Shown here in pieces: positions 13,599 through 48,070 of a DNA stretch of 64,000 bases. How positions within the stretch are numbered: position 1 is the stretch's first letter; each line of letters begins with the position of its first letter. The position numbers and the translations under genes were made by a program. Source of the stretch: Streptomyces sp. NBC_01465 (GTDB lineage: Bacteria > Actinomycetota > Actinomycetes > Streptomycetales > Streptomycetaceae); assembly GCF_036227325.1 (NCBI RefSeq), contig NZ_CP109467.1, positions 8,556,001 through 8,620,000 of the forward strand. The letters run 5' to 3'. Below the pieces are notes generated by a model, which ran no database searches, was not told the origin of the DNA, and saw only the letters and a list, made by a program, of their open reading frames with translations.

Positions 13599-16500
13599 CT
13601 ACTCCGCTGCGACCATCCTGCGCAGAGCCGGCCGGAGGGGAGCGGCCGACTCCTCGGACCATTCCACGAGCGCGGCCACCGTCCGCAGGTCGAAGAGCTT
13701 GCGGAGCGGTATCTCCATGCCCGCCTCGGCGCGGGCGCGGTTGATCAGGCGGGTGGCCAGGAGCGAGTGTCCGCCGAGTTCGAAGAAGTCGTCGTCGATG
13801 CCGACGCGTGGCAGGCCGACCAACTCGCCGAAGAGTGCGCAGAGCGTCTCTTCCTTGGAGTTGCGCGGCTTGCGGCTGCTCACGGTGGTGGTGTGCTTCG
13901 CGGGCAGCGCCCGTCGGTCGATCTTGCCCGCCTGGTTGAGGGGCAGGCGCGACAGCGGGACGACCGCGGCCGGAACCATGTAGTCCGGCAGACGCGTCCG
14001 CAGGAACTCGGGCAGCTCGGCCAGCAGGGGCCCGATCACCTTGGAGAGAGCGGGGGCGTTCGCCCGGATCCGTCCGGCCGCCGTGCCGGGAACGAAGCCT
14101 CCGGTGAGAGCTCGCCGGCCGACGGCCTGTTCGGGCAGGAGGACCGCGTCGAAGCCGTGCACGGCGTCGCCCGACCACGTGAGCACCGCGTTCCGGCCCT
14201 GCTCCCGCGCCCACACGGCGACCTCGTCCGGGTCGAGCGGCTTGCCGGAGGGGTCGGCCGTACCGCGTACGCCGGTGGAAGCCGCCGCGGCCTCCTCCAC
14301 CAGTCGCGCGTTGGGTATCCCAGTGATGCGCACCGGGCTGTCGCCCGCCTTCTCGAGGTGGCGGTGCAGCTGAGCGAGGGCGGACACCTCCCGGCCCCAG
14401 GTCACCGACGGCACTGCGGCCAGGTCGAGGACATCGGACGGCTGCTTGTGCAGGACGACTTCGTAGCGGTGGCGGGTCAGTTCGTTGTGCGCCTGCCCCG
14501 ACTTGAGCCGGATGTCCACGGCACAGGCGTTGTCACGCGCCCACTCGGTGAACCAGTCCGGTCCGACCACCAGTTCCCGTTCCGCGAGCAGCGCCTGCTC
14601 CACCAGCGCCCGTAGCTCGTCATGAGACGCATGGGGATGGGTCGCTCGCTGCACCGCGGTCGTCAGGATCCGGTGGGTGGCGGCGTTGCGGATGTCTCCG
14701 AGGACGAGGCGTCCGCCCGGCGCGAGGAGCTCCATGGCCTGGTGCATCACCTGGCCCAGGTAGTCGATGCTCGGGAAGTACTGCGCCACCGAGTTGAGCA
14801 GTACGGTGTCGAACCCGCCCCGGGGCAGCCCTGTGATGTCGTCCGCCGCCTGGGCGCTGAGCCGGACCCGCTTCCCGTGGCCGGCCTGGTCCGCCTGCTG
14901 CCGTACGCGGTCGACGACGGTGGGGGAGAGGTCGGTGCCCCAGTACTCGTCGACCTTGTCGACGATCTTCGCGAGGAGCAGGCCGGAGCCCACCCCGATC
15001 TCCAGCACCCGCCGGGGAGCGAACCGCAGCACCTGGGCCACCGCCGCGTCCTGCCACTCGGTCATCTGCTCGAGCGGGATCGGCTCGCCGGTGTAGGTGG
15101 AGTTCCAGCCCTGGAAGTCCTCGCCGAGGGTTTCGGCGCCGGCCTCGGCGTAGGTGTCGTCGTAGACGTCGCGCCATTCGTCGACCTGTGCGACGGCATC
15201 GGCCACCGCGGCTTCCGGGTCGGGCGCGACGTAGGCCACGAGGCGTTGATCGCCCTTCTGGTCCTCGCGTACCACGACGGCCGCCTGCACCACTCCGGGG
15301 TGCGCGGTGAGGGCTTGTTCGATCTCGCCGAGCTCGATGCGGAATCCGCGGACCTTGACCTGGTGGTCGGAGCGGCCGATGTACTCGACCTGGCCGTCCT
15401 TGCCCCAGCGCGCGACGTCACCGGTGCGGTACATGCGGGATCCCGGCTCGCCGAAGGGGGACGCGACGAACCGGTGCGCGGTCATCGCGGTCTGCCCCAA
15501 GTAGCCCCTCGCGAGCTGTACTCCGGCCAGGTACAGCTCGCCGGTGACTCCGGGTGCGACGGGACGGAGTGCGCCGTCGAGTACGTACACCTGGGTGTTC
15601 CAGACCGGTGCGCCGATCGGGAGGCGGTCCGCTCCGGGGACGTACTGGGAGGCGGTGACTTCGACCGCGGCTTCGGTGGGGCCGTACATGTTGTTGGCGG
15701 AGCACTGCGGCAGCAGTTCGACGAAGCGGTTGGCCAGTGCGGGTGGGAACGCCTCTCCTCCGACCTCGATCCACCGCAGGCTGGTGCACCCCCTCGCCGA
15801 GGGCTCGGCGACGAACGCCTCCAGCAGGGACGGTACGAAGTCCGCTCCGGTGACCTGCTCGCGCTGGATCAGTTCCGCCAGATAGGCGGGGTCGCGGCGC
15901 CCGTCCGGTCGGGCGATGACGACGGTCGCACCCACCTGCAGCGGTCCGAACAGCTCCGGCACCGATACGTCGAAGCTCGCCGTCGTGGACAGCATCACCC
16001 GGTCCTGGTCGGTGACGCCGAATTGCGCCAGGCCCCACTTCAGCCGGTTCATGATCGACCTGTGCGACACCGGGACGCCCTTGGGGCCGCCGGTGGAACC
16101 CGAGGTGAAGATGACGTACGCGGCATTGTCCGCCACCAGAGTCCGCTGGGGATCCGTCTCCGGATACCCCGCTACGTCGGGAAGCTGTTCGTCGAGGATC
16201 AGCAGGGGCTTCGCGCTGTCCAGTACGTGCCGTACGCGGTCCTCGGGCTGCTCCGGGTCGATCGGCACGTACGCGGCGCCGGCCTTGACCACCGCGTAGA
16301 TGGCCACCATCAGCTCCACCGAGCGGGGGATCTTCACCGCGATCAACTGCTCGGGTCCTGCGCCCTGTTCGGCCAGCCAGTGCGCCAGTTGGTTGGCGCG
16401 CCGGTTGAACTCCCCGTAGCTCAGCGTCTCGCTCTCGCCGATCAGTGCGACCGCGTCCGGGGTCCGCTCCGCCTGCGCCTCGAAGGCTCCCGGCAGCGTG

Positions 16501-47602: not shown

Positions 47603-48070
47603 GTGGAAGTCGACAAGCAGCGCACAGTAGTCGCCGACTCCTTTGCCCTTTACCAGATATCCACCGGTCACACCCGCAGGGGCACCGCGATGCGCCGTGC
47701 CGCGGTGGAGGGCCGGCTGGAGATTCTCGTCTCAACTCTCGCCTTCACCGTCGCCTGCGCAATGCGCAGCTGCTGGGACGAGGACTGCGACAGAGGCCAC
47801 CCGGACGTCGCCGGACGGCGCATCCATGAGTTCTACGAACAACACGGATTCGGGGTGATTCAGCCGACGGTGGCAGAGTCGGTTGCCGCAGCCAGGCTCT
47901 ACAGCGCGCTGACGGACCACCGGGTCGTCGGGCCGGAGGTCCTGGCGGCGTGTTCCGCACGGCTCCTCGCCCGCACCAATGAACTTCCCATGCTCTCGAC
48001 TCGCCGTGCCTCGTACTGCTACACGCGGATGCATCCCGTGGACGAAGCGGTGTCGATGGAGCTGATCTAG
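47603..48070 (+). CDS. Small hypothetical protein, possible degenerate PIN-like fold
   Basis: A 155-residue protein starting at GTG 47603 behind GAAGGA. VADSFALYQISTGHTRRG resembles the first strand and helix of PIN-domain proteins, and LLARTNELPMLSTRRASYCY resembles their C-terminal part, but the usual set of acidic residues is incomplete and I cannot claim nuclease activity. It follows the condensation-domain gene by 10 nt, so it is probably co-transcribed with the exporter and that gene. A role in the pathway is unknown. Confidence 0.55.
   Translation: MEVDKQRTVVADSFALYQISTGHTRRGTAMRRAAVEGRLEILVSTLAFTVACAMRSCWDEDCDRGHPDVAGRRIHEFYEQHGFGVIQPTVAESVAAARLYSALTDHRVVGPEVLAACSARLLARTNELPMLSTRRASYCYTRMHPVDEAVSMELI

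Follow-up and report, generated by a model that had tools for sequence, protein, structure and literature searches.

In the genome of Streptomyces sp. NBC_01465, a stretch of 64,000 nucleotides (contig NZ_CP109467.1, positions 8,556,001 to 8,620,000; i.e., 8.556 to 8.620 Mb of a one-contig 9.14-Mb genome; hereafter, the window) carries a 19-gene operon and a divergent MFS gene that probably direct the synthesis of a peptidyl C-nucleoside. On the basis of gene content, we predict that an octosyl-acid route operates on pseudouridine and that the resulting amine is then decorated by ligases of the pseudouridimycin type.

The operon (24274 to 44647, minus strand) begins with the gene for a NikO-type enolpyruvyl transferase (at 44647) and ends with that for a third ATP-grasp ligase (at 24274). 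Its 18 intergenic gaps range from -16 to +77 bp, and 11 of them are overlaps (8 of exactly 4 bp). Start codons were partly picked by overlap, and choosing longer ones instead could only narrow the gaps; the start of the thioesterase gene was set at 28298. Enzyme classes were assigned by Pfam and NCBIfam scans of the window proteins, and simple active-site patterns were present in all 14 proteins checked (of 19). The MFS gene and a gene for a free-standing condensation (C) domain lie on the plus strand, divergent from the operon. The genes are listed below in operon order, followed by the two divergent ones; percentages are sequence identities, the sap-type locus is that of S. albus NRRL B-1811 (L023), and G554 is a genome of the same family and another genus.

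43265 to 44647, minus: NikO/PolA-type enolpyruvyl transferase (EPSP_synthase Pfam domain; start uncertain, with a longer open reading frame to 44746).
42213 to 43268, minus: TruD-type pseudouridine synthase, PumJ-like (PF01142; 47% to the sap-type locus, 52% to G554).
41515 to 42135, minus: 2-oxoglutarate-dependent (2OG) oxygenase b (PF13640; the G554 protein is its sister, support 0.999).
40276 to 41484, minus: ATP-grasp ligase, PumK-like (PF13535; 44% to the sap-type locus, 44% to G554).
39170 to 40291, minus: HisC-like pyridoxal phosphate (PLP)-dependent aminotransferase, putative NikK/MalK-type role (PF00155, TIGR01141).
38562 to 39173, minus: 2OG oxygenase a (PF13661; 46 to 47% to G554, Streptomyces sp. 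WZ.A104, and Amycolatopsis).
37886 to 38557, minus: P-loop kinase, putative PumH/PolQ2/MalE-type role (Pfam/NCBIfam; 46% to G554).
36555 to 37889, minus: radical S-adenosylmethionine (SAM) enzyme with CxxxCxxC, putative PolH/MalJ-type role (PF04055).
35923 to 36558, minus: Tyr-phosphatase-family phosphatase with CX5R, putative PolJ/MalL-type role (PF13350 and motif).
34989 to 35909, minus: VioC/GntD-like 2OG hydroxylase, probably for an Arg-type amino acid (NCBIfam GntD, 200 bits, and VioC, 170 bits, both under cut-off).
33784 to 34992, minus: class V aminotransferase/cysteine-desulfurase-like PLP enzyme (PF00266, TIGR01976).
32408 to 33793, minus: ATP-grasp ligase, PumM-like (46% to the sap-type locus, 45% to G554; no Pfam match, weak PRK06524 biotin carboxylase match).
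31194 to 32411, minus: acyl-CoA-dehydrogenase-fold N-oxygenase, PumE-like (46% to the sap-type locus, 48% to G554).
30586 to 31194, minus: orphan AMP-binding_C plus carrier protein (PF13193, PF00550).
29738 to 30589, minus: HAD phosphatase (PF08282).
28295 to 29692, minus: aldehyde dehydrogenase (PF00171).
27447 to 28298, minus: type II thioesterase with GxCxG nucleophile (PF00975, RifR-like).
25606 to 27444, minus: stand-alone adenylation-peptidyl carrier protein (A-PCP) didomain (PF00501, PF13193, PF00550).
24274 to 25569, minus: third ATP-grasp ligase, weakly BacD-like (PDB, 62 bits), the last gene of the operon.
44879 to 46354, plus: MFS exporter, PumL counterpart (PF07690; 45% to G554, 31% to the sap-type locus).
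46411 to 47592, plus: free-standing C domain with intact HHLVFDG (PF00668, 109.6 bits).

The scans recovered every enzyme that an earlier note on this stretch had listed (i.e., NikO-like protein, TruD, radical SAM enzyme, kinase, phosphatase, two 2OG oxygenases, HisC-like aminotransferase, and ATP-grasp ligase), and, together with motif reading, they also recovered the N-methylating, epimerizing nonribosomal peptide synthetase (NRPS), A-PCP, free C domain, orphan carrier, and VioC-like hydroxylase that it described. That inventory left unnamed the PumE-like flavoenzyme, the PumM-like and third ATP-grasp ligases, the thioesterase, the aldehyde dehydrogenase, and the class V aminotransferase-like protein, and it named one of the two phosphatases. 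The gene at 32408 to 33793 was considered as a free C domain and rejected, being PumM-related and without a Pfam match; the real free C domain is that at 46411 to 47592. Pfam reported no domains of a GMC oxidase, class III aminotransferase, amidinotransferase, or carbamoyltransferase, and no separate O-methyltransferase, among the 19 operon proteins.

In a PDB search, the NikO-type protein matched NikO best (4fqd; 359 bits; runner-up, 155 bits). The PolH/PolJ-type pair of radical SAM enzyme and phosphatase was recognized by domain and by homology to S. samsunensis (54 and 31%, respectively), and the radical SAM enzyme is closer still to those of G554, WZ.A104, and Amycolatopsis sp. GM8 (62 to 63%). 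The PolH/PolJ chemistry is taken from excerpts of PMC5365060, while excerpts of PMC8724604 provide the malayamycin steps (MalO, MalJ, MalL, MalM, MalI, and MalK) that served as the model for the enolpyruvyl transferase, radical SAM enzyme, phosphatase, 2OG oxygenases, and HisC-like aminotransferase of the window. The operon shares with nikkomycin and polyoxin the octosyl core functions as well as the NikO match, and it differs from them in carrying TruD (i.e., C-nucleoside chemistry) and a PumE-type N-oxygenase. The window TruD protein contains the motif GLKDEDGITEQ with Asp70 at the catalytic position of TruD enzymes, and its KD motif is kept. The A-PCP and thioesterase pair resembles NikP1/NikP2. 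Octosyl-derived nucleosides such as nikkomycin are chitin synthase inhibitors.

For malayamycin, the locus of S. samsunensis L018 was used as a stand-in for the cluster of S. malaysiensis; it shares with the window TruD, the enolpyruvyl transferase, the radical SAM enzyme, the phosphatase, two 2OG oxygenases, and an aminotransferase. Together with the tree of 2OG oxygenase a, in which the window protein falls inside the S. samsunensis group (support, 0.908), this common set could be read as a malayamycin/ezomycin-type cluster standing beside unrelated amino-acid genes. We regard that reading as highly improbable: the window TruD is 38% identical to that of S. samsunensis versus 46 to 52% to those of the pum-type loci, WZ.A104, Amycolatopsis, and G554, and the PumE-like and PumM-like genes overlap one another inside the operon. 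The window adds PumK-, PumE-, and PumM-type genes and NRPS parts, and the 19 operon proteins include no separate O-methyltransferase. They also include no carbamoyltransferase (MalD-type tailoring), a further point against the malayamycin reading; two carbamoyltransferases, from Amycolatopsis sp. GM8 (L014) and a metagenome-assembled genome (MAG; L019), matched nothing in the window.

By sequence, several operon genes have their nearest relatives in the pseudouridimycin cluster, which the earlier note had invoked only as a contrast. A TruD search of 392 genomes of the genus (threshold, 1e-20) found relatives in four, i.e., the source genome and three others (G303, G051, and G368). All three others carry a compact stretch with counterparts of the acyl-CoA-dehydrogenase-fold protein, TruD, the MFS protein (31 to 32%), and the PumK-like (44 to 50%) and PumM-like (46 to 48%; in G051 two pieces, 39 and 53%) ATP-grasp ligases. 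In the S. albus locus (L023), which is one of these three, the order of the placeable genes (PumE, kinase PumH, PumJ, PumK, PumL, PumM, and PumN) fits the published sap/pum cluster, for which excerpts of PMC6586884 give the sap gene table and the sap/pum order, and excerpts of PMC7835738 and PMC10127198 are further sources. Searching the window by tblastn (threshold, 1e-8) with 42 frames of this locus (>=190 amino acids [aa]; 3.5 to 17.5 kb) returned counterparts of PumJ, PumK, PumE, PumM, and PumL. The frames at the PumI, PumG (sapB/sapH), and PumN places, which were assigned by gene order and length, had no window match at that threshold; hence, neither the oxidase/aminotransferase pair of the 5'-aminopseudouridine route nor the amidinotransferase that provides guanidinoacetate was found in the window, and a PumN relative was found in G554. 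According to excerpts of PMC7955054, pum mutants point to PumK for Gln attachment, to PumE for N-hydroxylation, and to PumM for guanidinoacetate attachment. The best PDB matches of the PumE-like protein were FAD-dependent oxidoreductases (3m9v and 4kcf) and then the nitrososynthase 3mxl and DnmZ (161 to 174 bits; next, 94 bits).

Pseudouridimycin competes with UTP and thereby blocks bacterial RNA polymerase. The PumJ, PumK, PumE, PumM, and PumL counterparts would favor reading the window product as another RNA polymerase inhibitor of this type, with the octosyl genes merely replacing 5'-oxidation and amination; this overlaps with our proposal and differs from it in target. We consider it improbable, given that no PumI, PumG, or PumN counterpart was found at 1e-8 and that the octosyl set is complete; with its sugar and acyl group altered, the product may no longer act on RNA polymerase or may have another target. 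Beyond the octosyl-acid set, the window also differs from pseudouridimycin in adding the A-PCP, thioesterase, and VioC-like hydroxylase.

The proposed pathway assigns reactions by homology to genes whose presence, order, motifs, and relatedness were observed. The kinase and TruD would yield phosphorylated pseudouridine, to which the NikO-type enzyme would attach an enolpyruvyl group; the radical SAM enzyme would then form the C-C bond of an octosyl-acid phosphate, and the phosphatase would strip the phosphate. Two 2OG oxygenases and the HisC-like aminotransferase may next produce an amine on a uronic-acid nucleoside, which could be either ring-opened (nikkomycin-like) or bicyclic (malayamycin-like), as the genes are compatible with both. 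The PumK-like ligase would join an amino acid to this amine, the PumE-like flavoenzyme would N-hydroxylate the product, and the PumM-like ligase would acylate the hydroxylamine. Guanidinoacetate is probably not this second acyl group, since the window lacks PumN; with a PumN counterpart missing here but found in G554, what the PumM-like ligase adds should differ. The likely source of the acyl group is the VioC-like enzyme, A-PCP, and thioesterase: the hydroxylase, whose best PDB matches are L-arginine beta-hydroxylases, would make a nonstandard amino acid on or off the A-PCP, and the thioesterase would release it. The nucleophile motif of the thioesterase is GACAG, in which Cys replaces the usual Ser, and the enzyme may thus catalyze transfer instead of hydrolysis. 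The third ATP-grasp ligase could extend the released amino acid.

Related gene sets occur in other genomes. A search with the PumK-like ligase (394 genomes of the family; 1e-60) found it in eight, i.e., the source genome and seven others, whose surroundings (20 to 39 kb, less at contig ends) were compared with 26 window proteins (1e-10). In G554, 11 operon proteins and the MFS protein have counterparts inside approximately 13 kb (the cluster lies at C1 approximately 834 to 853 kb; L047 and L048), while its 38-kb stretch contained no match to the A-PCP, thioesterase, VioC-like enzyme, or NRPS. Further differences are a relative of PumN, 76% identical to that of S. albus and with a weak arginine-deiminase-family match under cut-off, and extra ATP-grasp and methyltransferase frames; another frame from the sap end likewise has a relative in G554. 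The G554 cluster should join guanidinoacetate to an octosyl-type C-nucleoside, and it is a cleaner target than the window. G509 has TruD, the enolpyruvyl transferase, radical SAM enzyme, HisC, one 2OG oxygenase, and the ligase; G698 and G598 are pum-type; and the fetched stretches of G659, G473, and G550 contained no TruD, enolpyruvyl transferase, or radical SAM match.

A scan of named genomes yielded 14 loci. Streptomyces sp. WZ.A104 (L031 and L015) has 9 of 11 core proteins (enolpyruvyl transferase, HisC, PumK-like, phosphatase, kinase, radical SAM, 2OG a, TruD, and PumE-like), together with further 2OG oxygenases and stand-alone A and C domains. Amycolatopsis sp. GM8 (L014 and L032) has an octosyl and TruD set adjoining a carbamoyltransferase and an NRPS with an FkbM methyltransferase domain and a thioesterase; this is another C-nucleoside cluster, on which we found no paper. 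The MAG L019 carries TruD, the enolpyruvyl transferase, radical SAM enzyme, HisC-like protein, and an A-PCP-thioesterase. TruD-like genes also adjoin NRPS modules in Kutzneria sp. CA-103260 (L016) and Streptomyces calidiresistens (L017); these stretches had no enolpyruvyl transferase or radical SAM match, and the loci possibly encode other peptidyl C-nucleosides. TruD relatives of 32 to 36% occur in a Roseibium, a Plastoroseomonas, and an Uhrbacteria MAG (L020, L021, and L022), with no other tested window protein in the stretch. A class-wide radical SAM search (1e-80) had 1 match in 394 genomes, i.e., the source genome.

Common descent was assessed with 12 protein trees (FastTree, unrooted, 4 to 17 sequences each). 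The window and G554 proteins are sisters in four of them (PumE, 0.969; PumM, 0.999; 2OG b, 0.999; MFS, 0.993). In the radical SAM tree, the window protein groups with WZ.A104 (0.820), and a clade of S. samsunensis, L019, and G509 has a support of 1.000. Several observations weigh against our proposal. The window and G554 are not sisters in the other 8 trees, and a single ancestor of the entire hybrid is consequently not demonstrated; the PumK tree groups the window with the G659/G473/G550 ligases (0.969), and the TruD tree sets it apart from the pum-type and G554 proteins. A PumM counterpart was not found in the WZ.A104 loci, and the kinase resembles PumH at the family level only, with PDB matches limited to short P-loop segments. 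Finally, the free C domain and orphan carrier hint at peptide chemistry beyond that in the scheme. The hybrid was possibly built by repeated assembly from shared modules.

Three further features lie beyond the 3' end of the operon.

23867 to 24277, minus: degraded arabinofuranosidase fragment (scar), outside the pathway (PF09206 positions 167 to 233 of 315).
22824 to 23729, minus: BrkB/YihY membrane protein, probably unrelated (PF03631; 85% in G276).
13599 to 22481, minus: NRPS of doubtful membership (C-A-PCP-E-C-A(nMT)-PCP, i.e., with epimerization [E] and N-methyltransferase [nMT] domains; 2,960 aa).

The NRPS most likely stands outside the C-nucleoside pathway. The earlier note had described one continuous locus with a multimodule NRPS as a pathway part, on which much of its case for novelty rested; instead, 342 bp, the BrkB gene, and 544 bp with the arabinofuranosidase scar separate the NRPS from the operon, so that the locus is not continuous. 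The scar is a rearrangement trace at the operon end, and matches of approximately 185 bp (up to 90%) occur at other places in the genus. A query of BrkB plus scar had matches in 167 of 382 genomes (1e-30), among the matches listed mostly over BrkB, and the 20 kb around the BrkB genes of G276, G304, and G179 contained no other tested window protein (1e-15). The NRPS is a mosaic relative to a locus of the source genome at C1:70001-110000 (L084 and L085; three NRPSs, a stand-alone A-domain frame, a polyketide synthase, a P450, and a flavoenzyme). In 100-aa windows, residues 1 to 1700 are nearest NRPS2 (74 to 98%), residues 1701 to 2000 are 57 to 60% identical to NRPS2 or NRPS1, residues 2001 to 2400 are nearest NRPS1 (83 to 91%; NRPS3, 68 to 84%), and residues 2401 to 2900 are nearest NRPS3 (67 to 76%). 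This locus is likely the source or sister of the window NRPS. The C-terminal 531 aa matched 139 of 382 genomes (1e-90), with relatives of >=60% in at least 14 of the 381 other genomes (one match partial) and a second copy in the source genome (69%). None of the 14 listed genomes is among those with a TruD match at 1e-20; of the three other genomes that do have one, G303 matches the segment at 46%, and no match at 1e-90 was found in G051 or G368.

The competing reading is a single cluster of approximately 34 kb. In it, the A-PCP would load the first C domain, the NRPS would assemble a tripeptide of the form X1-D-X2-N-methyl-X3, and transfer to the nucleoside amine would fall to the free C domain or thioesterase. 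Pfam found three condensation-type, two A, two PCP, and one methyltransferase domain; by motif reading, the first PCP has GGDSI, the first C domain is LCL-like, the second is DCL-like, and there is neither a loading module nor a thioesterase, functions that the operon could provide in trans. The NRPS and operon also share a strand, and other octosyl and TruD clusters have NRPS parts (Amycolatopsis GM8 and the A-PCP-thioesterase of L019). Against these points stand the intervening genes, the mosaic, the relatives in genomes without such a TruD match, and the core of G554 without an NRPS match in the 38 kb, and we therefore consider this single-cluster reading, and with it pathway membership of the NRPS, unlikely. 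As its reading frame is intact, the NRPS may nevertheless be functional, by itself or with different partners. The A-domain codes (A1, DVFAVAAYAK; A2, DVPFEGMVEK; A-PCP, DVAFLGMVYK), read by eye with PheA anchors, gave no amino-acid prediction. A six-frame scan of the window with one MbtH motif found no MbtH gene, and a promoter/terminator scan of 13000 to 30000 yielded nothing beyond chance level. A pentapeptide-repeat protein (53937 to 54869), a few kilobases outside the locus, could be unrelated.

Taking the operon and MFS gene as the pathway, homology supports the C-nucleoside logic with octosyl-acid chemistry and peptide attachment that the earlier note had proposed. The combination is not unique, given the related sets in G554, WZ.A104, and Amycolatopsis sp. 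GM8. In agreement with the note, no described cluster with the same set was found in the open-access PMC literature, which most subscription papers lie outside; nor did we find there a paper on an octosyl-acid set together with PumK/PumE/PumM-type genes. Thus, the kind of pathway is already known, and the combination of octosyl and pum-type genes appears to be undescribed. More tentatively still than the single-cluster reading, the window, G554, and WZ.A104 might represent an undescribed class of N-hydroxy-peptidyl octosyl C-nucleosides, with a nikkomycin/malayamycin sugar and a pseudouridimycin side chain, for which the NRPS was recruited here as well; an N-methylated, D-residue-containing peptide on a UTP/UDP-sugar mimic might then target RNA polymerase or a sugar-nucleotide enzyme. 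Were both pathways united in gene sets from more than one genus, they could be regarded as combinable modules. Such gene sets point to a class of compounds that mass spectrometry could find, and they supply relatives of the ligases and the N-hydroxylase whose substrates are probably new.

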